Shown here one piece after another: positions 7,500-31,530 of a stretch of 31,530 bases of DNA. Below the pieces are notes generated by a model, which saw nothing but the letters and a program-made list of their open reading frames with translations, was not told where the DNA came from and ran no database searches. The stretch is from the NCBI GenBank assembly GCA_001275005.1, contig JWZX01002363.1:1-31530 (forward strand), written 5' to 3'. The stretch's first letter is position 1. The number at the start of each line of letters is the position of its first letter. The DNA is from Chrysochromulina tobinii (Eukaryota > Haptophyta > Prymnesiales > Chrysochromulinaceae). Both the position numbers and the translations under genes were made by a program.

Positions 7500-7567
7500 C
7501 CTTGTGGGGCCAGCACTGCAGCAGCTCCGCGTTGGTCGCTCCCCAATTCCCTGGGATTCCAGAGGTG

Positions 7568-7591: not shown

Positions 7592-7641
7592 GTGGGGTAC
7601 GAGCTCTTCGCTGGACTCTTTCAAGATCAAACTGATAAGAG

Positions 7642-12134: not shown

Positions 12135-12240
12135 GCTCGCCGAACAAGATCGACTTCCCCGAGTGAGCTCGCCGAACGAGATCGACTTCCCCGAGTGGGC
12201 TCGCCGAACGAGATCGACTTCCTCGAGTGGGCTCGCCGAG
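12116..12240 (+). repeat. 32-bp tandem repeat overlapping the GIGYF-like stop codon
   Basis: Units begin at 12116, 12148, 12180 and 12212 (GATCGACTTCC), giving about 3.9 copies. The first copy encodes the final residues IDFPE and the TGA; later copies lie in the 3' UTR. The TGA in copies 1 and 2 is part of GTGAGC, which becomes GTGGGC in copies 3 and 4. The period is not a multiple of three. Confidence 0.9.
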
Positions 12241-13808: not shown

Positions 13809-14016
13809 CACCCACCTGTGACAGCGTTACGACATTCGGGGCACTCGGGCCGCATCTCGGCAGTTGCACCCGGTTACACAACGGTCCGTTAGGAGATGTC
13901 CGTTAGATACTCACAGTCCATGTCCAGGTTCGTAGATTAGAGGATAGTTGACCATCAGAATCTCGAATACTAAACTTGGGTTGAGTCTAGTTTTACTCCT
14001 CCAAACTCCACGCGCG

Positions 14017-14562: not shown

Positions 14563-14689
14563 CTTTGTTCAGGAAATAAAATCGAAGAAGTTACACGAAT
14601 TGTGAAGGGAAAATACGGCTCATCAATAACAGAGCCCACAGAAGAATCCTACGCGCAGCTTACATATTGCCATCGGCGGTTGTTGGTGC

Positions 14690-17473
14690 ATGAAATGGCA
14701 AATCGCGCCGTCGCGGCACTCCCCGGCCGGTCGAACAGCCACAGGGACGCCAGGCCACGCTGAATGCCGCCGCTGGCCAACATCACCGAGGAGTCTCCCC
14801 GACGTTCGCCGCGAACGGTGCGGCACCCACACAGCGCTGCATCATGCGCACGCGCGCCGCCGTGACTCTCCACGCGCCGCTGTCCCTGAAACCCTACCCG
14901 TCTCGCTGTCCATCCAGGTGCCATCCAGCGCAGCCAACGCTCGTCCGGGCGCGCTGCCGCCAGCGATCCGCCCGTCCACCGTTGATGGAAGCCATGGTTC
15001 TCGCGGGCCCAAGGTGCTGGCCATCCTGGAGGCCGTTTTGTCCGTCGAGGAGGGCGGCGCTCCTCACGGCGCTCCTCCCTCGCCTCTCAAAAGACAATCT
15101 ACGTTGGGTGTGAGTGAGCTCAAGAAGAGGAAGGCGGAGCAGGCGAAGAAGAAGCTCGCTCCGGTTCCGGCGCTGATCAGCCGTGATCAGGTGCTCACGT
15201 CGCTCTTCAAGATACTTTCGGAGGCGGAGGCAGAGGCGGCTGGTGCGCCCACAGTCGCCGGCAGCGGTGGTGAGGCAGTTGTGGCGGCCATGTGCGGTGG
15301 CAGCGCGGCGGCGTCGTCGGCGTCGGGCATGATGGCACCGCCGCTCGTGCCCGTGCCGCCTCAGACGGCGCGCGAGGCGCATCACTCCCGCGATCACTCC
15401 CGCAACGGTGGGTCACGGCCGCCGTCGGCGGCCAACGGCACCTTGTCCAACGGTGGTTCTCGGCCGGCTTCAGCGCGGGGTGCAGTCACGTCGCGCCCCG
15501 CCTCGTCGTCGCCCACGATTAACTTCCTGAGCAAGATCCTGAGTAACAAGGAGGGCAACGGCCAAAAGGACGTGCTGCCCGCCACAGTGCCCACGTGGAA
15601 AGAGGATCTCGTCGATAATGTGCGGCGGCGCGCAGCGGCCCACCAGGCGGTCAAGGACTATGAGGCCAAGTGTGCGGCCGAAAAGCTGGCCGCGGAGGCG
15701 CTCGAAAAGGAGAAGCAGGAGATGGCTCGGCTGGAGGCGATGACGACCGCCGACAGCCTCGCGGCCGCTGGCAAGGCCACGAGCCGCGCCGCGTCGGCCC
15801 GCGGGCAGCGAGATGCGGAGTCGCCGCGCCCGTTGAGCAGCAAGCATGAGCTTCACGCGCCGTCGACGTCCGAGCCCGCGCCGCCGTCGGCCGGCAACAG
15901 CCGCCAGAGCAGCCGGCCCGCGTCCGCGCGCAGCCATGCCGCGAGCGCGTCAGCGACCCCAGCGGACGCGGACGCGGCGGAGGACGAGATGGGCGTCGAG
16001 AACAATATGACGGCGGAGCTCGCAGCGATGATAGCACGTCATGACCGCAACGTGCGAGAGAAGCAGGCGCTCATCAGCCACTACAGCAACGAGTACGATA
16101 AGCAGGTGCTCCAGAAGCAATTCAATGACGCCGATCACGAGAAGATGAAGCGGCTGCTCAAGAGCAACATCGCCGAGTTGGTGAGGCAGGGCGGCAGGGC
16201 AGGCCTGCAGGCGGCGGGCTCGGCTGCGGACCAAGCGCTGCTCATCACGCACGACAAGATGTGCGTCAAGGTGGAGCTGCTGGAGGCCCGGGCGAGCGAG
16301 TCAATCAACATCAATACGGCGCTCGAGGGCGCCATCAACAAGTACAGGGCCGAGCGCCAGGACCAGAAACGCTTCCTCCTGGAAACGGACGCGAGGGAGA
16401 AGCAGATGGATAAGGACATGCGAGCGTTCCGGGCGGCGGCGCACTCAGCGCTCGATGACAAGGAGCGCGTCCGCGGCCGGCTGCGCCGGATGCGGCACGA
16501 GTGGAAGTCTGAGACGGCCTCGGCCGAGTCTGACTTGCAGAGCCTGCGTACCATGGAGGATGAGCTCGATAAGGTGATCGCGATCGGCGAGGCGGCCGAA
16601 GAGAAGGATCTGCAGGCGTTCAAGCGCGCCGAGAGCCACCAGATGCGCGTGGCGTACGCGTACACGCAGAAGATCTCGCTCAAGGCGGGCTACATTCGCG
16701 CGCAGCTCGAGGGGAATGCCAGGCAGCTGCTGCACCTCGGCCAGTGCGCGGGCGTCTCCGGCCAGAACGCGTCGGCGACAGAGGCCGAGAGGTACGAGGT
16801 GAGCGACCCGAACAGCTGCAAGGAGATTCTGCTCCGGACGCATAAGGCCAACGAGACGCGCAACGCATCGGAGCTCGCCTTCTACCAGGAGCAGGCCGAC
16901 CTGGTGGAGGAGGCCATCAGGGAGCTCACAGAGCTCGAGGTGGAAGAGGAGATCCTCACGAAGCGCTCCAAGGCCGCCACGGCCGCCAATTGGTCCAAAG
17001 GCAAGCACCTCCTCGACCAGGTTGCGACGGCCGATCGCGAGGCGCGCCGTCAGGAGCAACTGCTCAGTCAACTCGCGAGCGTCGCGCCTCAGCTTGAGAG
17101 TTGCCTCGCGCGGCTGCACGAGGCGTTCGCCACGCTCGGGACGGCGCCCAACGGCCTGCGCCCGCCGCTGCCCGCCAGGTACGTACCCAAGGGGCTCGAA
17201 GCGCCGCGCGACAAGCAGCCGTCACACGTGCAGGTGTCTGTCTCCATGGAGCAGCTTGACGCTCTGCTGCAGACGCTCCAGTCGCGCGTGACGCACCTCG
17301 TCACGATGCGCGGCGTCGACGAAGAGACAGGCGAACCCATCCCACTCCATGAGCACCTGCGACCCTTCGTCGAGATCCCCGAGGCGCGCTCTTTTGCCGA
17401 GACGAAGGCGGAGCATGACGAGATGGTGCTCGCCCTCTTCAAGCGGCGCGAGGCCGAGGAGAAGGACGCATGA
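14690..17473 (+). CDS. Coiled-coil protein resembling outer dynein arm docking complex subunits
   Basis: An uninterrupted frame of 927 residues, ATG 14690 to TGA 17471-17473. The ATG is the only one before residue about 200; the first 75 residues are low-complexity, so the true start could lie in an upstream exon. Residues 1-435 are Ala/Ser/Pro-rich with short charged helices. From about residue 438 to 810 the protein is almost entirely coiled coil. The block NTALEGAINKYRAERQ and the following HSALDDKERVRGRLRRM match in spacing the region of ODA1/CCDC63/CCDC114-type docking proteins with a Leu-x3-Ile-x2-Tyr/Leu-Arg-x-Glu-Arg pattern. The C-terminus is globular-looking and includes a second short helix pair (SMEQLDALLQTLQSRV). 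If correct it would attach outer dynein arms to axonemal doublets. Any long coiled coil could mimic this, so family assignment is tentative while the gene call is firm. Confidence 0.6.
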   Translation: MKWQIAPSRHSPAGRTATGTPGHAECRRWPTSPRSLPDVRRERCGTHTALHHAHARRRDSPRAAVPETLPVSLSIQVPSSAANARPGALPPAIRPSTVDGSHGSRGPKVLAILEAVLSVEEGGAPHGAPPSPLKRQSTLGVSELKKRKAEQAKKKLAPVPALISRDQVLTSLFKILSEAEAEAAGAPTVAGSGGEAVVAAMCGGSAAASSASGMMAPPLVPVPPQTAREAHHSRDHSRNGGSRPPSAANGTLSNGGSRPASARGAVTSRPASSSPTINFLSKILSNKEGNGQKDVLPATVPTWKEDLVDNVRRRAAAHQAVKDYEAKCAAEKLAAEALEKEKQEMARLEAMTTADSLAAAGKATSRAASARGQRDAESPRPLSSKHELHAPSTSEPAPPSAGNSRQSSRPASARSHAASASATPADADAAEDEMGVENNMTAELAAMIARHDRNVREKQALISHYSNEYDKQVLQKQFNDADHEKMKRLLKSNIAELVRQGGRAGLQAAGSAADQALLITHDKMCVKVELLEARASESININTALEGAINKYRAERQDQKRFLLETDAREKQMDKDMRAFRAAAHSALDDKERVRGRLRRMRHEWKSETASAESDLQSLRTMEDELDKVIAIGEAAEEKDLQAFKRAESHQMRVAYAYTQKISLKAGYIRAQLEGNARQLLHLGQCAGVSGQNASATEAERYEVSDPNSCKEILLRTHKANETRNASELAFYQEQADLVEEAIRELTELEVEEEILTKRSKAATAANWSKGKHLLDQVATADREARRQEQLLSQLASVAPQLESCLARLHEAFATLGTAPNGLRPPLPARYVPKGLEAPRDKQPSHVQVSVSMEQLDALLQTLQSRVTHLVTMRGVDEETGEPIPLHEHLRPFVEIPEARSFAETKAEHDEMVLALFKRREAEEKDA

Positions 17474-17833
17474 TTGGCGTCGGGAATGGCGTGGGGGGAG
17501 GGGCACGTCATCGCGGTGCTTACCGACGGCACGCGGACTCTCATTAAATGGACATGTGTGTCATGTGTGTGGTTATGTCCGTCCATGGCCATGCGGACAC
17601 GCGCTCCGAGGGTACGCGAGAATCCGAATGTCAGAGAGTGGTTTCAAGTGCAGTGTGCATGTGTCTTCTGTGTCCATGACCATGTACGATGATTCCAAGT
17701 GGAAAGACACCTATAACATGATCTCACGTCCTCGACTCTAGAGCTCGACCTCAGAAGTGCTGTTGCCGAGTCACAGTCCGCACGTGCATATTTGCGCATG
17801 TTCCATCTAGGCGGGGCTGGGCCTGCATCAACC
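17474..17833. other. Convergent intergenic region, no gene seen
   Basis: This segment lies between the 3' ends of the coiled-coil gene (+) and the IF-1 gene (-). It contains GTGTG-rich sequence near 17555-17572 and has a lower GC content than the flanking exons. No coding sequence, RNA gene or strong repeat is supported. It should contain both polyadenylation regions. Confidence 0.5.
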
Positions 17834-18302
17834 TCACCTCTTGCGGAAGGTGATCCGGCCTTTGGTGAGGTCGTAGGGCGATATTTCGCACGTGACCTTG
17901 TCACCCACGAGGATTTTGATCGAGTTCTTGCGAATTCTGCCTGAGATATGCGCGAGGATGACCTGCGGCGCCCGAGCAAGAGAGAGACACAGGCTTGTGA
18001 GCAAGCGTCGACAACGTCCAAAAGAACCGGCCAGCGCTGCGTGGCAGTGCAGCTGCGAGTGGAGTTCACAGCAGAGTTCGCACCTGCTCGGTGTCGTCCA
18101 GCTGCACGCGGAAGTTGGCATTCGGCATCGCCTCGAGTACAATGCCCTCAAGCTCGAGCACGTCTTTTTGCTCCTTCATGACGATGGAGGAGCCGGCAAA
18201 GGTGGTGGCCGCGGCGGGCGCGCGGCATCGCGAGGCGGAGGGCACGCCGAAGGCCTGGCACGTCGAGCTGATGAGCAGGACCAGCAACGCGATGAGCGCC
18301 AT
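17834..18302 (-). CDS. infA: Nucleus-encoded plastid translation initiation factor IF-1
   Basis: Two exons on the minus strand: exon 1 18302-18084 (73 codons) and exon 2 17962-17834 (42 codons plus TGA), joined in phase 0 into 115 residues. Residues 1-17 are a hydrophobic signal peptide ending CQA, followed by F18 and a basic transit-like stretch, i.e. a bipartite plastid-targeting leader. The mature part is a complete S1/OB-fold IF-1: [25 protein letters not shown], then [23 protein letters not shown], then [15 protein letters not shown]. Each block matches the bacterial/plastid infA consensus. Expected role: binding the A site of the plastid small ribosomal subunit during initiation with IF-2 and IF-3. 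A gene usually found in plastid or bacterial genomes has thus moved to the nucleus and gained an intron. It is divergent from the ARM membrane protein gene. Confidence 0.92.
17963..18083 (-). other. Spliceosomal intron in the IF-1 gene (121 nt)
   Basis: Donor CAG|GTGCGA at 18083, acceptor GCCGCAG|GTC ending at 17963, phase 0. A CT-rich tract precedes the acceptor. Joining the exons restores the IF-1 sequence exactly between DDTEQ and VILAH. Unlike the introns of the next gene it holds no tandem repeat. Confidence 0.9.
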
Positions 18303-18485
18303 CGATCGGTCAGACGACGTTCTGAAAAATCTGCGAGCGCCACCCTTGCGCCGCCCTTTGGGCTCTTTTGTAATCAGCGAAACAGGACACAGTGAACCCT
18401 TTGGGACCAGCCGTTCATGAACATGTAGTCCAATGGAGGCAACCTTCACATAGCGGGGCCCCGAAGGAATAATCGCGCGGAGGCA
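18303..18485. promoter_or_regulatory. Divergent promoter region between IF-1 and the ARM membrane protein
   Basis: The 183-bp gap separates two start codons on opposite strands. It contains a CCAAT pentamer (TAGTCCAATGG, about 18427-18437) and a 10-bp palindrome GTTCATGAAC (18413-18422). Use as regulatory elements is a guess from position only. Confidence 0.35.
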
Positions 18486-21400
18486 ATGCGCCGCCTGTTC
18501 ATGCGCCCCTCGCTGCTCGGGACTCCCGGAGCGTCGCTGCACTCAGCGCTCAGCTGCATCGGCTGGCTGCTGCTCGCGCAGCCCGTCGCCGCCGGCACGC
18601 TCTCTTCGGACCAGCTCTTCATCTCGCCGCTCTCGTCCGTCCTCATTTTCATCTTCATGCTTGTGTGCCTCGAGTACGGCTCGCGCTTCTTCCTGCGCAT
18701 GCAGCAGCCACCCTCGCTCGACTGGAAGGTGCTCGACCACTTCACGGGTAATCTCTTCGACGTCGAGGCGCGGCGGCGGCAGCTGCCCGACAACCTCGGC
18801 CTGCGCGGCGTGCGCTCGCTTCACGCAATCTCCTCGGAGAGCGACCCGGTGCTGCAATCGCAAGCGGCGTCGAACATCGCGACGCTTGTGCACCTGGCGG
18901 CGGCAGGCAGCCAGGAGCCACCGCCCGCGCAGCTGCGCGCGCTCGCCAGCCTTGTCGGCCGCTTCACACCGAGCTCGCGTGGGATGGCGGCGCTCGGCAT
19001 CGCTTTCGCCGCGCTCGACCCGGCACGTGCACCGCTGCTGCTCGAGTGCGGCGCGGTGCAGGCGGTCTTAGAGCTCGCGTGCGACGTGAATGAGGAGCCC
19101 GATGCGCAGGGTGCGGCAGCGCTCGCGCTCGCCCTGATGGCCGGTCAGGAGGCACTCCGTTCCACGATGCTCGCCGGACGGGCACTCCCGGCGATCGAGG
19201 CGCTGCTTGGCTCCCGCAACCCGGATGCGGTGCGGTGCGCAGCGTGCGCGCTCGCAGAGGTGGCGGCGCACGCGGAGGCGCCCGCGCGCATCGTACAGGC
19301 GCTGCCGCCTCCGGTCCTCGTGATGATCTGCCGCTCAGAGGACCAGGTGATGACCTCGGATTGCATGCTGATTGCCTTCCTCATCAGCGCTCAGAGGACC
19401 AGGTGATGACCTCGGATTGCATGCTGATTGCCTTCCTCATCAGCTCTCCGATGACCAGGTGATGACCTCGGATTCCTGCCTGACAGGTGATGCAGACAGC
19501 GGCCGCACGCCTCTTCGGTGCCCTCGCCGCCGACGAGCGGCTCCGGCTGCTGCTGCTGCACGCGGGCTGCCTGCATCCGCTGCTCTCGATCGTGCACACG
19601 TCGCGCGGCGCGGTCGCGCGCTTCGAGGCCATGCATGCCCTCGGGCTGCTCGCCGTGCGTACTGAGGAGGGTCGACGCAGGCAGGGGCGCGAGCGCGAGG
19701 TGCGCGCGCTCCTCAACGGGATGGCCTCTGATTGCCATTGATTGCCATTGATTGCCATTGATTGCCACTGATTGCCTCTGATTGCCACTGAGTGCCTCTG
19801 ATTGCCAATGAGTGCCAATGAGTGCCAATGAGTGCCTCCCTCATTGCATGCAGGTGCGCGCGCTCCTCAACGGGCTGGCCGAGTTCGCCTCGGCGCTGCT
19901 GCGCACGCGCCAGCTGCAGGTGCTCAATACGGCGCTAAACGCGCGCCCCTTGGCCGAGCTGCTTGCGTACTACGTCCCGCGCCCCGAGCTGGCCAAGTAC
20001 ACCCTCGAGCACGAGCTGACTCGGATGGAGTATCGGGTGCGAACGGCGGACGGTGTGGAGCTACGGAGCACTGAGTCGATCCGAGCGCACTATGAGTCGC
20101 TCGATGAGGCTGGTCAGGGTGGCCTGCTCTGGCGGCTGGCGAACCAGTCGTTGCTCGCGGACCTCATCAGCGAGCTCCATGCCAACGGTTTCGTTGACAT
20201 CGCTCTCGGTGCGAGCGTGAGGGCCACCTCTGATCACCTCTGATCACCTCTGATCACCTCTGATCACCTCTGATCACCTCTGATCACCTCTGATCACCTC
20301 TGATCACCTCTGATCACCTCTGATCACCTCTGATGACCCCCAATTGCCTCCCTCATCAGGCGCGAGCGTGAGGGCCACCTCGGTGCGCTTTGCCCTCGAC
20401 TTAGGAGCCCAGGTGCTGCGCGTGACCGCCGTCGTGGGCGTCTTCGTCGCAGCACCCGCCGCACCCGGCGGCAGCGGCGGCGGTGGCGGGGGAGGCGGCC
20501 TTGGCGAAGAGGACGCTCTGCAGCTGGTGCGCTTGATGGCCCACTGTGAGGTACGCCTTCCGCCCACGACGGCGTTCGCTTCGGATCCAGCGTCGGCCGA
20601 GGCGGCGGTGGTGGCCTCGGCGGCGTCGGCCGAGGCGGCGGTGGTGGCCTCGGCGGCGACGGCCGAGGCGGCGGTGGTGGCCTCGGCGGCGACTGCTGGC
20701 AGCAGCAGCAGCAGCAGCAGCAGCCAAAGTGGCGCCGTCGTGGGCGCCATAGCCGGCGGTGGCGACAGTGGTGCGCCGGCCGCCGCGCTGACGAGTCCAG
20801 CCAAGGGCCACTGCCGGTACCTAGTGCGGCCGGCCAAGCGGCAACCGTCCATCCTCAGGTACATGCCTGTTCTACTGCCTCTACTGCCTCACCTGCCTCA
20901 CCTACCTCACCTGCCTCACCTGCCAACCGTCCATCCTCAGGAGCGACCTCTGATGACCTCTGATGACCTCTGATTGCCTCTGATGACCTCTGATGGCCTC
21001 ACCTGCCAACCGTCCATCCTCAGGAGCGACCTCGTCGGAGCGGCCAAGCTACTGGCCGAGCGGTACGCGCATGCGGAGGAGAACGAGCTGCCGCTCTGCC
21101 TTCGCCGCCTCCATATGGAGCAGCGGCAGGTGCCCACCCCGGAGGAGGCCGAGGCGGCGGCGCTCCTCAAAAAAGCGCAGGCGGCGCAGGCGGCGCAGGA
21201 GGCGCAGGAGGCGCAGGCGGCGCAGGCGGCGCAGGCGGTGCAGAGGCCGAGGGAGGCAGCACAGACAATTGCAGAGGAGGCGGCCGACGAGGGGGCAGCC
21301 GAGGATGCGGCAGCGGAGCAGAAGGCAGGGGCAGCCGCGGCAGGGTCGGAGGCTGCAACCGCTGCTGCCCCTGCCGCCGCTGCTGCCCCTGCCGCTGATG

Positions 21401-23280
21401 ACGACCTTCTCCTTTCACCACCGGGAGCAACGCCCTACACGCCCACGAGTCCTAGTGCGGTACAACCGGTTTGGCGACCTCCGCAAACCGACAGCCGACT
21501 TCACACCGACAGCCGACTTCACACCGACAGCCGACTTCACACGGACGAGGACGAGATGCCCTCCTCGATGTCCTCTCCCGAGCGCGCCATTTTAGGCAAC
21601 TCTCCCGAGCGCGCCATTTTAGGCAACTCTCCCGAGCGCGCCATTGTAGGCAACTCTCCTGAGCGCGCTCCAGCCGCTGTGTCGACCTTCATGTCCCCAG
21701 AAGAACCAAAGTCTCCAAAGTGGGACGACGACGCGCCTGACTGGCTGACGCACGCCGTGGCTGTGTGTAGCGTCTCCAATACCCCCACCGACGCCGCACC
21801 CGCACCCACACCCGCACCCGACGCCACCGCCGCGGCCGCGGCCGCTGCCACCGCACCAGAAGCCGTCGGCACCGACGCCGACGCCGACGCCATCGCCGCC
21901 GCCGCCGCCATCGCCGCCGCCGCCGCCATCCCCGCGGCCTCCGTGGGCGCCGTTGGTGCGGGCGCGCCGGCGCCGCCCGAACCACTGCTGCTCTCGCAGG
22001 TGTCGATGTATCATCCGTCGGCGGCGCTCGATTCGCTGACCGGTACTGACCTGGGCGCCGGGCTGCGTGCTGAGCTTCGCCAGTCTGGGGTTCGTCAATC
22101 TGGAGGCAAGCTTCGGCCTCCGCGCCACGCTTGGGACGGCGCTCGGGACCCCTCTCTCGGGTGGCATGCCGGGGAGAACTCCTCGGTGACGGATTCGGTC
22201 GAGGCGGATGTGGAGTCGTTGCTCTCAGTCGACTCGGCCAGTGTGGCCTCCGACGCACCGCCAAGCTTCGCCGACGTCGCCTCCGGCGATGAGAGTATGC
22301 CGCCCACGCCAATCCCTCGACGGCCCAAGCCCAATGCCAATGGCTCTGAAACCCAAGTCAAGCAGCGCCGGCCACGGCGCGAGCACGCACGGCAGCCGAG
22401 CGCGGCGACGGGCGCTGGTGCTCCCGACTCGCTCTCGGCACATCGCGCCCAGCTACGCGCCATTCGCAGGGAGAGTCGACGAGCGGCCCGGGAGGAGGCG
22501 GCCGAGGACGCTGCTGCCGGCGCGGAGGCGGCGGCGCTCACGGCGGCGCTCAGCGGCGCGTCCGTCGATGCCTCCGCGGCAGCCAATGGATGTGCGATGC
22601 CGGCCGCAGCCTACATGCCGCCACCGCCGCCACCTTCGTCTTCCGCCGTCGCGGGCGCCGTCGCGGGCGCCGTCGTCGGCGCGACACCGTTGGTCAGCGC
22701 CAAGGCCGCCAGCGGCACCGCCACGGGCGCCGCCACTGCTTCTACGGGTGGATGTCGCCGTCGTCGCGGAGCGACCAGCGCACCGAGCGGCAGTGTGGGC
22801 GCCGGCGGCGCCGGCGGTGCTGCGGGCGGCGTGGGCGGCGGGCACAGCAGCGCAGCGCGCGCGGGCGGTGCGTCGGCCTCCCAAGCGGAGGCTTTCTACG
22901 CAGAGCTGGCGATCTCACTCAAGGATGCAGACTATGCGGGGACGGTAGGTAGGCTCGGGAGCCACGAGCTCCGCGAGCTTCGTGCGACGAATGAAGCGCT
23001 ACTGCGGCTCGACCTGTTCCTGATGGTGGTGGCGCACGCGGCGGCCAAGCTTCCGCGCTACTGCTCCGCCATCGAGACACACGTGAGCATGGGCGTGCAT
23101 GCGCAGCTGTCGGATGCTGACACGCTCGCGCTGCGGCTGGGCGCGATGGCCCTGCGCACCTTTCTGAGCGTGCTCGAGAACATCAAAAAGGAGGCGGACG
23201 ACATGGCCACCAAACTGGACTCGTGGGAGGAGCGCGATGCCGCCGCCGCGCGCGCCGCCGCCATGGACCCCGACGCCTGA
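18486..23280 (+). CDS. Five-exon membrane protein with ARM/HEAT-like repeats and a long low-complexity region, unknown function
   Basis: Exons: 18486-19346, 19487-19699, 19854-20208, 20360-20858 and 21024-23280. Together they give 1395 codons, including TGA 23278-23280, with phases 0, 0, 1, 2. Every junction is GT-AG and keeps the frame. The N-terminus has a hydrophobic helix ending in PVAA (signal-like), then a membrane segment (VLIFIFMLVCLEYG, about residue 56). Ala/Leu-rich helical repeats resembling ARM/HEAT run through exons 1-2. Exon 3 has YYVPRPELAKYTLEHEL and a helical region. Exons 4-5 carry Gly, Ala and Gln/Ala-rich tracts and in-frame DNA repeats. The last 150 residues are again helical (YAELAISLKDADYAGTVGRL, LRLDLFLMVVAHAA). 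I do not recognise the family. It looks like a type I or signal-anchored endomembrane scaffold. The repeat-built introns are its most unusual feature. Confidence 0.75.
19332..19486 (+). repeat. Intron 1 array: 56-bp unit duplicating the exon 1 end and donor
   Basis: The intron is 19347-19486 (140 nt). GACCAGGTGATGACCTCGG recurs at 19341, 19397 and 19453, an exact 56-bp period that begins inside exon 1 (19332). Each unit contains a 15-nt copy of the exon 1 end (Arg-Ser-Glu-Asp-Gln codons, or a variant) flanked by CATCAG before and GTGATG after. The real acceptor is CTGACAG at 19480-19486, followed by exon 2 GTGATGCAG. Confidence 0.9.
19700..19853 (+). repeat. Intron 2: copy of exon 3 start plus 10-bp repeats
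   Basis: Intron of 154 nt, donor GAG|GTGCGC, acceptor TGCATGCAG|GTGCGC. Its first 27 nt (19700-19726) match the first 27 nt of exon 3 (19854-19880) with one mismatch. The interior (about 19727-19840) is a degenerate 10-bp repeat with the core TGATTGCCAT/TGAGTGCCAA. Confidence 0.9.
20209..20359 (+). repeat. Intron 3: copy of exon 4 start plus (TGATCACCTC)n
   Basis: Intron of 151 nt, donor CTCG|GTGCGA, acceptor CTCATCAG|GCGCGA, phase 1. Its first 22 nt match the first 22 nt of exon 4 (20360-20381) with one mismatch. The interior is about eleven copies of the 10-mer TGATCACCTC (20230-20330), ending in TGATGACCCC and a short pyrimidine-rich acceptor. Confidence 0.92.
20591..20700 (+). repeat. 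33-bp in-frame coding repeat (exon 4)
   Basis: Units starting at 20591, 20624 and 20657 encode Ala/Ser-Ala-Glu-Ala-Ala-Val-Val-Ala-Ser-Ala-Ala, with a partial fourth. DNA identity is nearly complete. An AGC run encoding Ser follows at about 20699-20723. Confidence 0.85.
20859..21023 (+). repeat. Intron 4: duplicated exon 4/exon 5 junction with 9-10 bp repeats
   Basis: Intron of 165 nt, donor CTCAG|GTACAT, acceptor CTCAG|GAGCGA, phase 2. The 17-mer CAACCGTCCATCCTCAG ends exon 4 (20842-20858) and recurs at 20924-20940 and 21007-21023, the last one forming the acceptor. The exon 5 start GAGCGACCTC also follows the middle copy (20941-20950). Between them are CTGCCTCAC repeats and TGATGACCTC 10-mers. 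Confidence 0.9.
21178..21243 (+). repeat. 9-bp in-frame coding repeat, Gln-Ala-Ala (exon 5)
   Basis: A run of GCGCAGGCG/GCGCAGGAG units encodes repeated Gln-Ala-Ala or Gln-Glu-Ala, likely a long alpha helix or coiled coil. Confidence 0.8.
21487..21540 (+). repeat. Three perfect 18-bp coding repeats (Thr-Asp-Ser-Arg-Leu-His)
   Basis: ACCGACAGCCGACTTCAC occurs at 21487, 21505 and 21523 without a mismatch, all in frame. Confidence 0.92.
21574..21668 (+). repeat. 27-bp in-frame coding repeat (Ser-Pro-Glu-Arg-Ala-Ile-x-Gly-Asn)
   Basis: Units at 21574, 21601 and 21628, then a partial unit from 21655. Only a T/G change (Leu to Val) in copy 3 and a C/T change in copy 4 are visible. Each unit is a potential SP phosphosite. 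Confidence 0.92.
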
Positions 23281-23723
23281 CAGCACACGTACGATTGTAG
23301 ACGAGGCTCATTTCGAGAGCGACTGTGCTACTTTGCATGCACAGAGGCGCCATAGATGCGACAGGGTTGTGCACGAGATCGGAGATGACGAGAACATGCA
23401 CGAGTTCGAGATACTCGGTACTAGAAGCCCACGGGCAAGTATGTGGAATGTGCTAGTTTGTGTGGAACCTGGCTCGATACATAGCGCCCCCACGACTTAT
23501 TTAACTGAGCTTTCAGTGGTGTTGCGCATGTCATCCACAGCGAAGGCGCGCGCTCACGATGACGCGCGTACTTCTACAGACGCCGCGCGGCCGCGCAGGA
23601 GCTGGAACGTCGAGTTGATATGTTTAGACGGGACCTTCGAAAGCCAGCCGTCCCCGTCGCACCGCTTTGTGTGGGAAAGGAGCGCTAGTGCTCTTCTCTG
23701 AGCTTCAACTGGAACATTCCGAC
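23281..23723. other. Intergenic region upstream of the ARM-repeat gene
   Basis: The sequence is markedly less GC-rich than the preceding gene, and no credible exon is visible. Reading frames through it lack ATG-initiated coding character. It probably holds the 3' UTR of the membrane protein and the promoter of the next gene. A short 5' exon of the ARM gene in here cannot be excluded. Confidence 0.45.
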
Positions 23724-24620
23724 ATGTTGGAACCCGACAGGATCTTCACTCACCATTATGAGCTGGCACATGCCCAGAGGGCGACACCAAGGCGTTACGA
23801 CGGTACCCATCAAGTGCGTGCTGTCGTCGACCTGAGGGAAGCTAAGCAACTTCTTGAGGAGCAACGGCTTGAGGAATCACGTCGTATGTCAATGGTGGCC
23901 GAGCGTGAGAAGCAAGCGTCAACGGCGCGCTTGGGCGGCTTTGCGTCACTCGTGGCCATGCTCGACAGCAAGGAGCCTGGAGGTAGCGCGCTCGCAGTCC
24001 GAGCCCTTAAGGTGCAGTCTATGGACCCGGCGTCGCACGTGGCCCTTGCCGAGGCGGGTGCCATCGAGGCACTCACTGCACTTCTCGTCCGTGGCACGTC
24101 TCAGAGCGTGGACGAGATGGTGGCACGCACGCTTTGGAACATCAGCAGCCATGCAGACAACAAGCTCAGGGTCGCACGCTCAGGTGCCATCGCCCCGTTC
24201 GTGTCGATGCTGCGCAACGGCTCACCAAACGGCCGCGAGATCGCAGCTGGCGCTCTCAGAAACTTGGCGATGGAGGAACGGAACTGGTTGGCCATCCGTG
24301 AGGCGAGCGCCTTTGAGCCACTCATCGCGCTGCTCGACGAAGCTGAGGGCTCGTCGACGACCAAGGTAGGGCGTAAGCTAGCGGCTGCCGCCTTGCGTGA
24401 ACTCTCGACGGACCAAGACCTCAAGCGCGAGTTGATCGAGAAGGGCTGCCCCGGCAGCCCTGCGCTCCGCCGCACCATTGCCGGCGACACACTCATCGAT
24501 CCGCACGTCTTCGTCGCGAGTAAGGCCGCCTCGAGCTTCTTTGCGCCGAGCGTGGACGAATGCTTGAGCTTCGATTTGAAGGTATCGAGGTTGGACCTAT
24601 CAAGCTCTCGACGGAAATAA
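23724..24620 (+). CDS. Armadillo-repeat protein
   Basis: 298 residues from the first ATG in frame (23724, MLEPDRIF) to TAA 24618-24620. The frame is open a little further upstream without an ATG, so an upstream exon is possible. A charged helix (residues about 35-68, LREAKQLLEEQRLEESRR) precedes three or four ARM repeats with the usual pattern of small residues and Asn-Ile/Leu: GGFASLVAMLDS, LAEAGAIEALTALL, ARTLWNISSHADNKLRVARSGAIAPFVSML, AAGALRNLAMEERNWLAIREASAFEPLIALL. The last 60 residues are less regular. ARM repeats form a superhelix for protein binding; nothing indicates the partner. The gene shares its strand with its neighbours, 170 bp before the next ATG. It is unrelated in sequence to the ARM-like region of the preceding gene beyond the fold type. 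Confidence 0.8.
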   Translation: MLEPDRIFTHHYELAHAQRATPRRYDGTHQVRAVVDLREAKQLLEEQRLEESRRMSMVAEREKQASTARLGGFASLVAMLDSKEPGGSALAVRALKVQSMDPASHVALAEAGAIEALTALLVRGTSQSVDEMVARTLWNISSHADNKLRVARSGAIAPFVSMLRNGSPNGREIAAGALRNLAMEERNWLAIREASAFEPLIALLDEAEGSSTTKVGRKLAAAALRELSTDQDLKRELIEKGCPGSPALRRTIAGDTLIDPHVFVASKAASSFFAPSVDECLSFDLKVSRLDLSSSRRK

Positions 24621-24789
24621 TTAGGCGACTTCCGACTACACAGGTCGCACGGCTGTATCCTTCTCATCTGAGCCGCGTACAACCGTTGCAGTACAACGTT
24701 ATCATGACGAGTAATGTATTCGGGGATCCCACTCGTGAGTAAGAGACTCGCTGTGTATCCGCTCGCCGCGGAGACCGGGTTTGGAAAAC

Positions 24790-27700
24790 ATGTCTCCATG
24801 TCGCAGATTCCGAGAAACGAACGAACGACGACAAAGCACGCGTGCACAGAAACGAAGAGGGTCACGAGAAGTCGTTGATCAGGCGCTCTCGTTTCGCCTC
24901 AGAGTTCTAGAGCGCCGGCTGAGGGTTCCCAAGAACCATCAGCTTGGCCAGCGGCCGGCGAGTGCGAGTGCGGCACTCGAAATGAAACACCCCGTTTCAC
25001 CTATGGCGGATAAAACCTTCCACAAGGTGCACTGGGCAAAGGTAAGGACCTTTGCACAAGCGCTCGGGTCGATCCGCACATGCATTCAACGAGCGGTGAA
25101 GCCCCCTCAGTCGCCACGCAAAGGACACAGCATAAAGATTCACTCTGAGTACATTGGAAAGCTGCGCCAAGGAGTAAAGAGTGGTGCCGCAGCTGCTGCA
25201 TTTGATTTGACTGCGTCCGCACGGCAAGCGGCAGAAGAGGCGGAGCAGTTGATGGCTACGGGTGGCATTGTGACATCCGTCGAAGATGCTGCTGACCTCG
25301 AAAAAGTAGAGTACTGGCAGCAAGGCGATGCGAACCTGGCGACCAAGGAGAATATGGAAGCGCGGAAGGCGCTGAGATATCACAAAGTTGTGCTCGAAGC
25401 GCTCCAGATTTATTGGGAAGCAGCGCAGCGCAGCTTGCAGTCAGGGGGTGACTCCTCTGCCGATGAGCTGCACCAGGAGGGCCATGCCATGATGCTGCGG
25501 CGCATCTACCGCATCATGATCAAGGACTTTGACCCCGAAGACTGCGAGCGCTCGATTGCCGAGGACTGGGTGCGGGACACAAAGGGGAGGGGGAAGCTCA
25601 CACGCAAGGCATTTTGCGACGCATTCTTCGAGCTAGCAGATACGTGGACCGCTCATATTGATGCTCATGAGTACGCAGCTTTCTTGAAGGTTCTCTTCGT
25701 CTCGGTCACCGTCCAAAAAGAGGTCATCGGACCAGACGGGAAGGTGATGATGGTCGCATTCGTATGGAAGGACGAGGTCGACTGTGTCTTCGACGAAACG
25801 TACGCTGAGGAGGAGGCGGAGGACCCTGCCGTCGTCTCAAAGGTAGTGCAGGTCGCAACTCCCGGTGTGACAACTCCCAGTGCAGCACCTTTGAATGTGC
25901 CGACACCGGAGACGATCGCAACGCGGGAGCCTACCGCGACGCCTAAGCCGACAGCGACGCCGGAGCCGACAGCGACGCCGGAGCCTATCGCGACGAAGAA
26001 GACAAAAGAGTATCGCACTCGCGCCAAAGAGAGCGTCAAGAAAAAAGGCGAGGTGACAGCCAAAAAGAACAAGGCCGCCACGAAAATCCAGTCGACGCGT
26101 CGAAAGCAAAAGGCCGTGAGGGAGAAAGAGAAGCGCAAGGAGGCAGTCCTCATCATTCATAAAAGAGTGACGGAAGCCCCGGTAGTCCGCCGCCGCGAAC
26201 GCGAAAAGAAGGTGACAGAGAGGCAAGGCATCGCTGGTACGCGGGGAAAGTTGCAGTACTGGGCGCTTCGCAAGGGGTTGCCGCCTCGCCTGCAGGAAGC
26301 CTTTGACGAGCTTCCCGATGAGGATCAGGCCAATCTTGCAAACCTTTCCGCTGAGAAGCGTGTCAAGTACTTGAAAAACGTTACGAACAGAGGTGTGCCG
26401 AGACACGTGATCGAGGCGCGCAAACTGCTCGATCCTCATCTATTGGCGATATTTGATGATCTGACTAGGGCCGATCAGTCCGCAGTAGCTAATCTCTCTC
26501 CGGAGAAGCGCGTGATCTTTCTCCTGCGGCGAGCAGACGCGATCGAACGTGCTGACAAAGGCGAGAAGAGGATGCTCTACGAGCGCATGTTGCTACGAGC
26601 TATCGTGTGGTCGCAGGCCGAGACGGGGACGTTGCGCCAGGCGGTCGGTATGGGCCTCTGCCGAGCCCTCATCACAGCAGAGGTAGCCGCCATCAAGGAT
26701 CGACTCGCAGAGCTGAAGCGCAGGAGGGGGGGCGGATTGTTGACGCCCGAAGAGAAGGCCGAGCTCAAGCGCCTTGAGGTCCGCTTGGCGCTGTTGGAGG
26801 AGCTCATGAAGCTCCTGGAGCGAATCGCCGTGCTCAAGCGCAAGCGCTCGCCCGAAGAGGAGGCCGAGCTCAAGCACCTCAATATACGCCTGGAGCAGAT
26901 GATGATTCAGCTATTTGGGGGAGCCGAAGCGGCAGGGGAGGCAAACACGGAGGCCACCGCGGCGGCGACGGCAGACGCGATGGAGGGGAGTCAGGGGTCG
27001 ACACTGAAGCTGCTATTCCAGAGGACGGCACCACCTATGCTCCCAAAGGAAGATGGCCGTAGCCCTCACGGTGACGTTAGTGCACGACTCAGCTTCACGA
27101 CCTTCAGCAGCCTCAACTTCAGCCAGGGTGCTCGAGTGCTGGTGATACCTCAGGTGGTGGGGCGTCCTCCGGTGGTGCAGCCCACGTTGGCCAATGTGCG
27201 CGCGCATACGCAGGCAAAACCTCAGATGGTGGAGCGTCCTCAGGCCGTGGGCAGTCCTCGATCCTTGGAAGCTCCCTCAAGACACTCTTCGCCAGTGCCG
27301 CCCTTCGACGACGAATCTCATTCTTTTTCGGGAGTAGACAGTCTGCTCGTACGCCCGGGCATCGTCGATGCTCCTCTGCAATCGGGCTCTGCTTTTCCGA
27401 CGGCCCAACTGCCCTCCGTTCCCAGTGCACTGGGCCACGATCGAAAAGCGGTGTTCGATCACCTTGACAACAAACGGAACACGGCTGGGCATGAGCACTT
27501 ATACCATGTGCAGCAGCAGACCCCGATGAGCGACGCCTCGGTGAGAGATGACTTGTTCGCCTCTCACATCCTTTCACTCCGACCCAGTCCAGGCGCCTCA
27601 GTGCGGCCTAGTACCGTTCAGCATTTAGCCAAACCTCCGCAGGCCCAGCAGTCAGCCATACCTGCGCCTGGCTGGCATTCTTTGGGCGATCAAGGCTGGG

Positions 27701-28320
27701 CGGCTATGTCCGTCGCCAAATGGCCGACCAAGCACGAAGAGGCGCGCCCAAGCACTACAAACATGGCCAGCCGCGACGCGCATGGCCGAACACGAACATG
27801 GCGCCCAGGCACGACCATCTCAGCGCGCACGCACTCGAACCTGGAACCTCATCTCAGCGGATCATTCCTCAGCGCCGGGCATGCGGCATTGAGTCAGGGC
27901 GGCGAACCCGGAGACGCAGCGCTTGCATGGCGCCCGAGCCGAAGCCGAGGATACTGTGCTCTTAGCCACGCCGGCGGACATGTACCTTTGATATGGTATG
28001 CCTCGAGGCATGTACAGCCAGAGCCTCTGAGCCTGGGTGGAGGACAGCAAACGGTTCCTCCTTCCTTGGCTTCAAATCATCAGCCCGATCCGGGCCTCGG
28101 GCGCGCTGCCTTGAGCGCGAGCACCAGCCTTCGGGGGCCGCTGGCCGAGAGAAGCGGTGGCAAGTACTACAGGAACATAGAATATGTGGCTCTGAGTCAT
28201 GGCGGAGGAGTCGCTCTGACCCGCCCAGCTTCCGGCGGCAAAGTGCAGCCGAGTCCCCCACCTGCATCCCTGATGTTCGCGCCACCGCCAGGCTCCCCAC
28301 GATCGAAGCGGGCTAAGTAA
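24790..28320 (+). CDS. Large IQ-motif protein with internal duplications, unknown function
   Basis: 1176 residues from ATG 24790 to TAA 28318-28320, no intron seen; in-frame ATGs downstream (for example before KHPVSP) are alternative starts. A folded helical block lies at about residues 237-306 (RRIYRIMIKDFDPEDCERSIAEDW, FCDAFFELADTWT, HEYAAFLKVLF), similar to a segment I associate with protist flagellar or cytoskeletal proteins. Next come a Thr-Pro repeat linker (nt 25918-25995), a Lys-rich stretch and an IQ-like motif (AATKIQSTRRKQKA) that may bind calmodulin. A duplicated unit follows: LQEAFDELPDEDQANLANLSAEKRV and LLAIFDDLTRADQSAVANLSPEKRV. After it come two related charged helices (TPEEKAELKRLEVRL, SPEEEAELKHLNIRL). 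The Pro/Ser-rich tail repeats ALSHGG-like motifs. The stop overlaps GTAAGT (28316-28321), so a downstream exon is conceivable. Function is not assigned. Confidence 0.75.
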   Translation: MSPCRRFRETNERRQSTRAQKRRGSREVVDQALSFRLRVLERRLRVPKNHQLGQRPASASAALEMKHPVSPMADKTFHKVHWAKVRTFAQALGSIRTCIQRAVKPPQSPRKGHSIKIHSEYIGKLRQGVKSGAAAAAFDLTASARQAAEEAEQLMATGGIVTSVEDAADLEKVEYWQQGDANLATKENMEARKALRYHKVVLEALQIYWEAAQRSLQSGGDSSADELHQEGHAMMLRRIYRIMIKDFDPEDCERSIAEDWVRDTKGRGKLTRKAFCDAFFELADTWTAHIDAHEYAAFLKVLFVSVTVQKEVIGPDGKVMMVAFVWKDEVDCVFDETYAEEEAEDPAVVSKVVQVATPGVTTPSAAPLNVPTPETIATREPTATPKPTATPEPTATPEPIATKKTKEYRTRAKESVKKKGEVTAKKNKAATKIQSTRRKQKAVREKEKRKEAVLIIHKRVTEAPVVRRREREKKVTERQGIAGTRGKLQYWALRKGLPPRLQEAFDELPDEDQANLANLSAEKRVKYLKNVTNRGVPRHVIEARKLLDPHLLAIFDDLTRADQSAVANLSPEKRVIFLLRRADAIERADKGEKRMLYERMLLRAIVWSQAETGTLRQAVGMGLCRALITAEVAAIKDRLAELKRRRGGGLLTPEEKAELKRLEVRLALLEELMKLLERIAVLKRKRSPEEEAELKHLNIRLEQMMIQLFGGAEAAGEANTEATAAATADAMEGSQGSTLKLLFQRTAPPMLPKEDGRSPHGDVSARLSFTTFSSLNFSQGARVLVIPQVVGRPPVVQPTLANVRAHTQAKPQMVERPQAVGSPRSLEAPSRHSSPVPPFDDESHSFSGVDSLLVRPGIVDAPLQSGSAFPTAQLPSVPSALGHDRKAVFDHLDNKRNTAGHEHLYHVQQQTPMSDASVRDDLFASHILSLRPSPGASVRPSTVQHLAKPPQAQQSAIPAPGWHSLGDQGWAAMSVAKWPTKHEEARPSTTNMASRDAHGRTRTWRPGTTISARTHSNLEPHLSGSFLSAGHAALSQGGEPGDAALAWRPSRSRGYCALSHAGGHVPLIWYASRHVQPEPLSLGGGQQTVPPSLASNHQPDPGLGRAALSASTSLRGPLAERSGGKYYRNIEYVALSHGGGVALTRPASGGKVQPSPPPASLMFAPPPGSPRSKRAK

Positions 28321-29043
28321 GTAACACACGCCACTTGCGGAGCAAGCCCGTGGCCGACGCTCTGACCTTTGTCGAACGCTCGAGTCGACACGAGTCGACA
28401 AAAATAGTCTTTCAACTACCAACTAGTCGCGAATCAACGCGGGCTTCGTATTTCGGGTGTGCCGATGATTGTTGTAATTCGGTATCGTATTGTCGAGACC
28501 GCGCGCGCGCGACGCGACCGTGGAATCCCGAATCGCGGCCGACTCGCAGCTACAACCCCAGGACGCGGCCAACCCGACCCCCGCGGCCAACTCAGAAAGG
28601 CCGCCCCCGGTGCGAACCCGACCGCCTGCCGCCTCCCGCTCCGAGGCTCCCAGAGCGCGCCTCCCCGCCGGCCTGCTGCTGCTCAAAATGAAAAGCGGTC
28701 GGCGAAGATTAAGTACATTAAGGCGCGCGGCCGCGCGCGCCTGACGCGTAAACTCTTTTGCGGCGTCGCGCACCGCTGCGTTCTAGATCTCGAAGTTTGA
28801 GTCGCTGAGGTTGCTGCCGCTGAAGTCGGGTGGCCCTCACATCGGTCCCTTTCCGGCTTTATTCCGGCTTGGGCGGTTTGCCGCAGCCGCGAGCCGGACT
28901 TGCTTCTTGCACTTGGATAACACTTGGACTAGCTCATTCCTGCGCGGGTGGCACACGGCGCGCGCTCAATTAATGTACAGAACCTCTGAAACGTTTCTCG
29001 ACTGACTCTCTCACCACCCGGAACTGATCTCTTGTTCTCAAGA
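28321..29043. other. Intergenic region upstream of the sulfotransferase gene
   Basis: No convincing gene. A perfect direct repeat CGAGTCGACA lies at 28381-28390 and 28391-28400. About 28500-28740 is very GC-rich and open in more than one frame, but the translations are biased Pro/Arg/Ala sequence without domain character. GGCGCGC/GCGCGCC (about 28722-28741) can form a 7-bp hairpin. The last 200 bp likely contain the sulfotransferase promoter. Confidence 0.45.
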
Positions 29044-31131
29044 ATGGAATGCAAACTTCCTTTCTCGGACAAGTTCGTGGGAAAAATCGGCGATGCAATG
29101 CCCATGGCCGCCTCTTCGTCGGGAGCGGACGCGGCGCTGATTCAGGTCGATTCGCAGATCGGCATCGTCGAGGCGCAGCTCTCGCGCCTCTACGCGACGC
29201 GCAACAGTCTTGCAAATCCTGGCAAGGCGAAAGTCGACGGAGAACGCTTCTCCAACCGTTGCGCCTTCCCGCCGAGCGCCAACCTGAGTCACTGGCGTGG
29301 CACGGACGTCAAGATGCCAGTACCGTGGTGCGAGGCGTCTTCGCAGCCTCCGCCATCGCGCTCGCTCGATGAGCTCGCGCTCGAGTGGCAGGAGCGCCGC
29401 AAGGCCGATCCCAGCCAGCGGCCGCTGGGCGCCATCCCGGTTCTGCCGTCGCTTATCGTGCCGTGCTGCGCGCACAGCGGTACAACGTTTCTGTGGCGGT
29501 GCATGGAGTACGCCTTCCACCCGAAGCGCGTATGCGGCCGCCTCGGTGCCACGTTGCAGAACCCGACCTACGCGGAAAGGCAAAGCGATTGGACCGCGGA
29601 CCGCTGTGCGCGCCGGCGGTATCTGCTGCCCGGCCTGACCGGCAACATCGAGGGGCACTATGGGTACCGCAAGGAGTGGTTCTTCTACGGCGGCGGCTCG
29701 GCCGCGTGGAACAAGGGGTGGCAAGATTACGTGGGCGTCGAGCTGCCGCTGTGCTATTGGGAGCCCGAGTTCATGCAGGCGCTGCGGGAGCGCCCGCTCG
29801 ACGATACGCTGGCCCACGCGCGCCGGCTTTGCATGGGGCCTTCATATTCACACGACGCGCGAGCATGCCTTCACCGTGCTTGCATTCCGCTCGATCTACA
29901 CAAGGTGCGCCTGAGCCCCGCGTACGAGCACGAGTACAACAAGGCGACGATGCCGCGCTGGCAGTACCAAGCCACCAAGGCGCTGCCGCGCGTGGTCCCG
30001 ACGAGCCACTCGGGCGCTGTAGTCTCCGACATGACGCCCAACTACCTATGTGCTCCCAAGGCCCTGCGCAACCTCGCGGGGTCGGTCGGCGCTCCGGCGC
30101 ACTGGAGGCTGCTGCTGCTCATGCGACCTCCCCTCTCGATGCTCACGGCCTCCTATAAGATGTTCGTGCGCTGGGGATGGGTACGCGTGTACGGCGAAAC
30201 GTCTCCCGAGTGCCTCTGAGCGTCTCTGACGAGGACGCCTCCAAGTGCCGAGTGCCTCCAAGTTCCTCCAAGAGCCCCTGAGTCACCTCTAAGTGCCTCT
30301 GAGTCACCTCGGAGTGCCTCGGAGTACACCATGATTGCACCATGATTGCAGGTTCGTCACCTCGGAGTGCCTCGGAGTACACCATGATTGCACCATGATT
30401 GCAGGTTCGTCACCTCGGAGTGCCTCGGAGTACACCATGATTGCAGGTGCGCTCGGCGAACCTCGAAAAGGACTCACCCTAACCCGAACCCGAACCCATG
30501 ATTGCAGGTGCGCTCGGTAAACCTCGAAAAGGACGTGACCGAGCAGCTCGAGAAGCTCCAAAAGTGCAACGGCACGCTGTACCGGGAGCCCGAGCTGTTG
30601 CGCGCGCTCTCACCAAACGAAGTGCTCGCTTATTTTGGGCGATGCTGGCGGGGCGTGTGGCACGACCATGTGACGAACATCCTGCCTTACGTGTGCATCC
30701 GCTCGTGGCTTGCCGCTGGATTCCGTAAGGATCAGTTTATGCTCGTGCGGCAGGAGAGGCTGCGCCGACTGCGGTCGGACGTGCTGCTGCCCGCATTGGC
30801 CAACTTTACGGGGCTGCATCATAACCGCGCCGTACTCGACGACCGCGGCGAGGAGCTCCGTGCACATTGTGAGGCACCCGACATTGCCAAGGAGCATGCC
30901 TCAGCCACGGGCGCCAGACGACACAAGAAGGCGCCCCGCCAACACAGCGGGTGGGCGTCCGAGCACAACGAGACCGACGACCTGACTCCGATGGTCAACA
31001 CGCACTCGCAGTACACGGGGCACAACGCGACCCAACGTACCCTGTTGAGTGCTCATGTGCTCGCGGAGCTCGTGCGACTTGCGGACGTGCACCACCAGCT
31101 GCTCAATGAGCTTGGGCTGCACGAGCTATGA
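29044..31131 (+). CDS. Sulfotransferase-family protein, two exons
   Basis: Exon 1 is 29044-30180 and exon 2 is 30508-31131 (TGA 31129-31131), joined in phase 0 into 586 residues. ATG 29044 follows an in-frame TTG only. The PAPS-binding elements are recognisable: LPSLIVPCCAHSGTTFLWRCM (5'-phosphosulfate loop, GTT core) and HWRLLLLMRPPLSMLTASYK (3'-phosphate loop, with Arg and Ser), preceded by SDMTPNYL. Exon 2 continues with the usual YVCIRSWLAAGFRKDQFMLVRQERL helix and strand and the late LPALANFTGL. The long N-terminal extension has no clear signal peptide or membrane helix, which is odd for a Golgi carbohydrate sulfotransferase, so it may be soluble or the N-terminus incomplete. The substrate cannot be deduced; algae sulfate polysaccharides, lipids and small molecules. 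The donor choice (GGATGG|GTACGC) is the best fit to the frame but not certain. Confidence 0.78.
30181..30507 (+). repeat. Sulfotransferase intron: 53-bp tandem units joined AG|GT, plus decoy exon start
   Basis: Intron of 327 nt. The first part (30210-30335) is a 10-bp-period repeat of AGTGCCTCTG/AGTCACCTCG type. A 53-bp unit with CACCTCGGAGTG at 30305, 30358 and 30411 follows. AG|GT junctions occur at 30351/30352, 30404/30405, 30446/30447 and the real acceptor 30507/30508. A 34-nt copy of the acceptor and exon 2 start lies at 30440-30473 (two mismatches against 30501-30534). CCCTAACCCGAACCCGAACCC (telomere-like) separates the two. Confidence 0.88.
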
Positions 31132-31530
31132 AATCGTGGCCCTCGGATGGCGCGCACCATCATGCTCCACCGGGAGTGCGGGGCGTATTGGGGCAGCCCA
31201 GAGGGACAGAGTCGTGGAGCCAGCAGGAGAGTCCGACTCAGAGTCTGAGTGCATGGGACTTGCGCGCTTCGCGTTTCGGCCGTGGGGACAACTGCAGAAG
31301 GAGCCCTCTATCCGTCTCAATTGATCTGTCTTTCAACAGACAAAGTGGTACTCGACTGTCACTGTGTAGAACTAGGGGAACTACGTAGGGGAACTATCGA
31401 ATAGGAACTACGTTGGGGAACTATAGTGAACAGAACATTCAGTTCCCAAACAGGTGTGGGGTTAGGGCCTTATAAACATGAAAAATAGTAGACCACTCCC
31501 CCTTGGGTCAACCATTCAGTTCGGTCTCCG
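31132..31530. other. 3' flank of the sulfotransferase gene to window end
   Basis: No gene supported. The first 190 bp may be 3' UTR. A small inverted repeat TGTCT/AGACA lies near 31327-31342. A degenerate repeat based on GGGGAACTA occupies about 31374-31428. The last 100 bp hold a TATAAA (in CCTTATAAACATG, about 31471), which could belong to a gene starting beyond the window, and two copies of ATTCAGTTC. Confidence 0.45.
31374..31428. repeat. Degenerate tandem repeat of GGGGAACTAcg
   Basis: GGGGAACTACGTA, GGGGAACTATCGA, AGGAACTACGTT and GGGGAACTATAG follow one another with a spacing of 13-15 bp. It is AT-richer than surrounding coding DNA. No function is evident. Confidence 0.7.

Follow-up and report, generated by a model that had tools for sequence, protein, structure and literature searches.

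New spliceosomal introns have been described in several repeat-associated systems. Introners are similar introns at many unrelated sites. For 175 genomes, 27,563 introner introns are reported; the largest families exceed 2,000 copies, duplications measure 3-9 bp, and inverted repeats are present in 72 of the 177 families that could be scored (Gozashti et al. 2022, PMC9860276). The introner elements of Amoebophrya have direct repeats of 3-5 nt and inverted repeats of 8-20 nt, which occur mostly in introns with non-canonical splice sites (PMC7789003). Among 90 introns of Daphnia, 33 exon-end repeats of 4-12 bp were found (PMC4202315). In a potato case of the AGGT duplication model, a duplicated exon piece gives both splice sites and no payload is present (PMC4974935). 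Ideas on intron origin so far rest on few well-documented recent cases. In this study, we analyzed DNA of 31,530 nucleotides from the haptophyte Chrysochromulina tobinii (assembly GCA_001275005.1, contig JWZX01002363.1, positions 1 to 31,530 of the forward strand), hereafter the window. Five introns in two of its genes are built from variants of one decamer, and we followed this decamer family through the genome. From sequence comparison, we lean towards the view that these are recently gained spliceosomal introns, in which a short segment was inserted with duplication of the exon, via repair of a staggered break or a template switch.

The present system shares its logic with introners, Daphnia neointrons and AGGT duplication but fully fits none of their definitions. 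As with introners, similar introns lie at many unrelated sites and splice sites come partly or wholly from a duplicated target; a Chrysochromulina sp. metagenome-assembled genome is among the introner hosts (PMC9860276). In contrast to the introners of that survey, the duplicates here are variable (11-48 bp), the insert ends fall at varied phases, the body is a tandem decamer array, and two payloads have one geometry. The Daphnia neointrons are alike in having internal repeats and exon-end direct repeats at opposite ends, which were read as staggered breaks (PMC4202315). Relative to them, the repeats here are longer, the filler is shared and recurrent, and arrays are estimated in the thousands. 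As in the potato case (PMC4974935), a duplicated AGGT exon piece can give both splice sites and leave the protein unchanged, but here a foreign, branch-site-like payload stands between the copies. The Amoebophrya elements (PMC7789003) have likewise spread through a protist as repeated introns, and their direct repeats, too, overlie the exon/intron boundary, but those repeats are much shorter than the 11-48 bp found here. Among the titles and abstract openings that we covered, with subscription journals, preprints and supplements outside the scope, we recognised no report on haptophytes of introns made of decamer arrays or of long duplications of exons.

The decamer is dispersed through the genome. 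In pattern searches of the 53.15-Mb assembly (2,253 contigs), a two-unit 19-base decamer pattern gave 7,502 matches against 1 for its reversal, and a 28-base pattern gave 760 against 0. Thus, the reservation in a preliminary description of the window, that the decamer might be present in only these two genes, does not hold. As a random sample, we used 20 evenly spaced 10-kb regions (L001-L020; the first 10 kb of every 110th contig); every contig from which a region was taken is at least 10 kb long. Because these regions contain 33 19-base and 2 28-base pattern matches, against approximately 28 and 3 predicted by density, they are a fair sample. The sequence CCTCTGAT occurs in them 88 times and its reversal 0 times, the top of the 8-mers ranked by this contrast. 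At short distances, core motif spacings peak at 10 (92 pairs; the next, 11, has 24), with more peaks at multiples of 10. Among the clean inserts that reach 40 nt (n=43), 40 had 10 as their best lag in the range 5-15. Arrays of at least three core matches numbered 46 over both strands of 231.5 kb, and 0 in the reversed control, of which one strand was scanned. The 43 arrays of the random regions are confined to 8 of the 20 (variance/mean 9.1). Extrapolation gives about 11,400 arrays (bootstrap range 2,700-22,600), and scaling by pattern counts about 9,800: arrays are numerous and strongly clustered, and their total is poorly bounded. Similar introns lie at many non-homologous sites, with intron status checked only at the loci examined. 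Arrays are homogeneous within single introns, which fits the earlier suggestion of a self-expanding sequence. As an observation apart, positions of about 8031-8450 in L018 hold a higher-order repeat of decamer-like units (TGATTGCGTGTCTGAGTTCCGCTGATGAGAGA) within one intron. Viral carriage of the arrays was rejected, as there was no match in a viral contig collection, which may leave out records of this genome.

Most arrays stand between two copies of a piece of exon. We catalogued 112 distinct arrays together with their 80-bp flanks, of which the random regions supplied 39, the window 3 and loci fetched by array content 70, without arrays near locus ends and without repeats of overlapping loci; the 70 are biased to pure, perhaps young arrays. 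The duplicate test was run with decamers masked; without masking it was not strict enough, a score of at least 14 being reached by 162 of 1,120 chimeric controls. A flanking direct duplicate scored at least 10 in 69 of the 112 arrays and at least 14 in 55. Among chimeric pairs, 5 of 1,120 reached 10 and none reached 14; when arrays of the same locus more than 400 bp away were paired, 10 of 284 reached 10 and none reached 12. The random regions alone gave 18 duplicated arrays out of 39. A de novo scan for duplicates around any payload mixed coding repeats with insertions, and its other rows, at least 104, served for examples only. A minisatellite would be a tandem array without duplication of the unique flank, which does not describe these 69.

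For measurements, we used 47 simple cases. Removal of duplicates with a decamer core or inserts shorter than 20 bp left 46 of the 69, and window intron 3, of which the duplicate had been seen earlier but falls below the threshold once masked, was added by hand. The duplicates have a median of 25 bp and no fixed length, so that the near-constant 3-9 bp target-site duplication of introners is not seen, and the inserts are 28-192 bp long. Because the exon copies are identical in 23 of the 47 pairs and at least 90% identical in 46, many insertions look young. The introner-like sequence of the preliminary description is supported in so far as similar intron interiors occur in many genes, most beside an exon duplication that marks insertion. 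That description overlooked the exon copies on both sides, which hold most of the mechanism.

When two exon copies enclose an insert, joining them by splicing at equivalent points brings back the original mRNA. Exact restoration by a GT-AG pair was possible in 21 of the 47 cases, against 8.7% of random nearby segments, and restoration by GT/GC-AG in 31, against 20.7%. In the 21 exact cases, the splice point lies at most 6 bases from the copy start in 8, at most 3 from the copy end in 7 and between these in 6. Window introns 2-4 and the predicted introns of L055, L056 and L063 follow this equivalent-point splicing if small copy mismatches are allowed. Protein continuity after predicted intron removal was observed in the window genes and four loci: predicted splicing of carrier, carboxypeptidase, FGE and TTL fragments gave Pfam matches above cut-offs, and the spliced carrier and carboxypeptidase fragments align to solved structures across the junction. 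The length of insert plus copy, modulo 3, was distributed 21/27/21 among the 69 duplicated arrays and thus shows no frame constraint.

The inserts are poor in AG and GT (observed/expected 0.34 and 0.20). No sense frame is open in 46 of 47, and an antisense frame is open in 43. In sequence, the unit CTGAT-TGCC is close to two intron ends, CTGATTGCAG and CTCATCAG. The branch-site consensus is CTNAY, and we infer that this array unit serves as a branch site. The arrangement TGATGA...CTGA also bears some resemblance to box C/D RNA motifs. Where the flanks of arrays were called, they are nearly always coding in the array's sense. Their flanks (n=112) were scored as sense-only coding in 85, antisense-only in 3, mixed in 6 and without call in 18, whereas 600 random positions gave 159 plus only, 284 minus only, 42 mixed and 115 none. 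The coding model was right for 514 of 648 99-nt windows and replaced a weaker one (182 of 384 frames right). In clean cases with flanks scoring as coding, the array's strand was found for 22 of 23 flanks on the downstream side and for 15 of 17 on the upstream side, and the frame agreed in 5 of 5 strongly coding ++ pairs. These coding scores do not bear out an equal abundance of the decamer in intergenic DNA, the other reservation made earlier, although intergenic DNA as such was left unannotated.

The junctions of the 47 cases suggest how the segments were joined. At the 3' junction, the mean number of bases matching the array in phase is 1.60, against 0.91 for permuted partners; at the 5' junction it is 1.70, against 0.98. 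Each of these values was reached in 0 of 2,000 permutations. A junction match is lacking in 17 cases at the 3' side and in 9 at the 5' side. By eye, no strong base preference was visible at the breakpoints, the array ends at varied decamer phases, and serial insertions were read in L018, L052, L056, L067 and L070. Inserts may be cut at either end: the 3' end is truncated and the 5' head kept in L057 and L068, and the usual 3' end is absent in L004.

The same geometry was found with other payloads. A second short element, GCATGCAAGTGCTCACCACGGCGCCC, often with a CTCCCCACAG tail and unrelated to the decamer, has 2,013 matches (at most 3 mismatches) in the genome against 0 reversed. It was read in L002, L004, L006, L007, L023, L024 and L069 and often ends in CCCCACAG. 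Flanking duplicates of 14-44 bp, scoring at least 11, were present in 10 of 13 examined copies (at most 5 mismatches) against 5 of 345 controls. No terminal inverted repeats were seen by eye in these copies, no formal search having been made. The telomere-like CCCTAACCCGAACCC insert in window intron 5 contains a 15-mer that occurs 24 times in the genome against once reversed. Because the second element, this insert and a 9-bp CTGCCTCAC array alongside decamers behave in this way, the insertion geometry seems to belong to the insertion process and not to one element. The second half of L051 holds a different 10-bp array, CCCTGACGAA, seemingly in another intron of the same gene. At L001:8102-8183, a 25-bp duplicate and a 32-bp array, together 57 bp, lie antisense within a continuous minus-strand frame, and this frame scores best in 12 of 12 120-bp windows across the insertion. 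The array is apparently unspliced and translated as 19 extra residues. Since this insertion is not a sense intron, this single case suggests that splicing acts as a filter only after insertions have occurred.

On these grounds, we propose the following course. A short segment, usually a decamer array, would enter an exon, and 11-48 bp of the exon would be duplicated around it. Splicing could then pair a GT (or GC) within or beside copy 1 with an AG within or just before copy 2, leaving the mRNA unchanged. The duplicated exon would help to supply the splice sites, and the array would give repeated CTGAT/CTGAG units resembling branch sites and, on its sense strand, stop codons in all frames. Insertion was most likely at the DNA level, by staggered-break repair or replication template switch: exon ends with a few matching bases may have been extended on the array DNA of another intron and rejoined, and the overhang filled in. 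Arrays would lengthen afterwards by slippage. The variable duplicates, the matches at two junctions, the lack of a strong breakpoint preference, the cut inserts and the serial insertions fit break repair or template switching. As a local source, a donor within the same gene was rejected for want of a clear signal. More tentatively, and with some doubt prevailing, the genome may be pictured as a payload-tolerant intron factory. Breaks or switches in exons would be patched with branch-site-rich DNA in either orientation, the exon overhang would be copied on both sides, and splicing would select the surviving insertions. Thousands of introns would then be repair scars and the array a self-amplifying pool of branch sites that seeds further insertions. 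The empty site can be inferred for every insertion, and a single genome offers two payloads for comparison, which makes the break-repair route to introns directly testable. Intron gain that takes the form of tandem arrays could escape searches for sequence families.

Several observations weigh against this proposal. No duplicate scoring at least 10 was found in 43 of the 112 arrays, or in 21 of 39 from the random regions alone; these arrays may be older, longer or different. Array-free random positions also have direct repeats, 115 of 1,041 at a score of at least 10 and 60 at 14 or more, which we think are mostly coding repeats. An exactly restoring GT-AG pair is missing in 26 of the 47 simple cases. 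In L064 (predicted splice CTTTCC/GTACGT...CCACAG/GTACCG) and in window introns 1 and 5, the two splice ends do not occupy matching positions in a long copy; introns 1 and 5 have only a few bases in common with the downstream exon. The flank frame test is small (13 usable pairs), and two more strongly coding pairs lie on opposite strands. Array similarity within a locus exceeded the between-locus value in just 16 of 28 comparisons. Finally, there are 26 reverse-transcriptase matches in the genome.

With these reverse-transcriptase genes present, an RNA route has to be weighed: array or intron RNA would be reverse-transcribed at a nicked target, as by a target-primed, non-LTR (long terminal repeat) element. 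The variable duplicate would be the target-site duplication and the short junction matches would prime synthesis, and the ends CTCATCAG or CCCCACAG of several inserts, which resemble an intron 3' end, would also agree with it. Insertions of non-LTR elements are marked by an anchored 3' end and variable 5' truncation. We nevertheless consider this route unlikely, if the most serious rival: the inserts of L057 and L068 are truncated at the 3' end and keep the 5' head, the usual 3' end is absent in L004, no poly(A) tail or strong target motif was seen by eye, and we noticed no element whose coding body ends in the decamer, although no systematic search was made. The introns might instead be ordinary and older, the branch-site-like decamer having spread by slippage or by selection for splicing or nucleosome positioning, with the exon copies incidental. 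The homogeneous and nearly always sense arrays, the scarcity of AG and GT within them and the 43 arrays without an exon copy agree with this. But exon duplication at arrays is well above the controls and is not a product of slippage, and the antisense coding insert and the non-repetitive second payload are left unexplained, so that we hold this explanation to be improbable. Nucleosome phasing, which the preliminary description offered as an example, was set aside because 46 of the 47 simple inserts are shorter than 147 bp and the non-repetitive payload is likewise duplicated; called flanks, too, are nearly all sense. A classical introner, a non-autonomous DNA transposon that has terminal inverted repeats and makes short target-site duplications of fixed length, would account for many similar introns at unrelated sites, and introners with 4-bp duplications are reported from Chrysochromulina (PMC9860276), but the duplicates without fixed length, the varied end phases and the geometry common to two unrelated payloads make it very improbable. 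Equally remote is the Rogers model, in which exon pieces would simply have been duplicated in tandem and an array grown later at the seam: AGGT lies within the duplicated piece in many cases, exact GT-AG is available in 21 of 47, and L057, L060 and L062 have repeated blocks, but an insert of 28-192 bp separates the copies where a Rogers-type intron is one repeat, and the insert is not local, the same decamer or the same 26-mer lying genome-wide between exon copies that are unrelated where read.

The features of the window (G+C content, 63.6%) are collected in Table 1.

Table 1. Window genes, their array-bearing introns and the exon copies at them
Feature	Position	Strand	Remarks
Gene 1	18429..23280	+	Exons and four introns; armadillo-like, judged by homologues
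Intron 1	19347..19486	+	56-bp unit (exon piece plus array) x 2.6 at 19332-19474; 3' end CCTGACAG
Intron 2	19700..19853	+	Eleven core matches spaced 10 bp
Intron 2 exon duplicate, copy 1	19698..19720	+	AGGT at copy start is predicted 5' splice site
Intron 2 exon duplicate, copy 2	19852..19874	+	AG, then downstream exon
Intron 3	20209..20359	+	Array of TGATCACCTC
Intron 3 exon duplicate, copy 1	20211..20229	+	Copy end in phase with array unit
Intron 3 exon duplicate, copy 2	20362..20380	+	
Intron 4	20859..21023	+	9-bp CTGCCTCAC array at 20875-20924, then TGATGACCTC array
Exon end piece CAACCGTCCATCCTCAGG, intron 4	20842..20859, 20924-20941, 21007-21024	+	Three copies
Intron 4 exact 38-bp duplicate	20913..20950, 20996-21033	+	Copies 1 and 2
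Gene 2	29044..31131	+	Exons 29044-30180 and 30508-31131
Intron 5	30181..30507	+	Degenerate decamers; 53-bp unit x 2.7; telomere-like insert near 3' end
39-bp duplicate in intron 5	30435..30473, 30496-30534	+	Copies 1 and 2, flanking telomere-like insert at 30474-30495
IF-1 intron	18083-17963	-	Read by eye

Once introns 1-4 are excised, gene 1 is a single open frame that runs from 18429 up to its stop codon at 23280. Seven homologues of it were found and five aligned (P0024-P0028); junctions 1 and 2 are gap-free in all five and junction 3 in four, and P0028 reads through the area of junction 4. Gene 2 has 23 homologues, nine of which were aligned, and MFxxWxWVR[S/T] is contiguous over the junction in eight. 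The ninth, P0001 (a JGI record, 97-99% identical), continues into intron 5 with the residues of the unspliced window. Apart from P0001, homologues of both genes read contiguously at the intron sites, but their records may be transcripts. Overall, the five predicted introns are well supported, and those proposed earlier are borne out by these frame and homologue checks. Intron 4 apparently consists of two serial inserts, the 9-bp CTGCCTCAC array in its first half being a separate one.

The five decamers named earlier have 23 matches on the plus strand of the window, all within the five introns, and 0 on the minus strand. Confinement to introns applies to these exact decamers and not to the looser core motif, which has 77 plus-strand matches, 39 in the five introns and 38 elsewhere; the minus strand holds 31 more, and the reversed window has 12. 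Likewise, the 10-bp register that had been described for all five introns is found in introns 2, 3 and 4 only: intron 1, with its repeated 56-bp unit, has cores spaced 21/35, and intron 5, with its repeated 53-bp unit, has them spaced 11/42/61. The IF-1 intron, said to lack the decamer, contains no match to the core motif; at the place corresponding to the branch-site-like unit it has CTCAC.

Outside the two genes, a repeat AACATGAAAAATAGTAGACCACT...CCCTTGGGTYAACCATTC is common by eye to window positions 31480-31520 and L015:1904. Five 141-bp repeats, Kelch-like by eye, lie at 229-933 of the window, and similar repeats are present on L004. On the minus strand, positions 1512-7580 hold an open frame of 2,022 residues with four Ion_trans stretches, which is calcium-channel-like.

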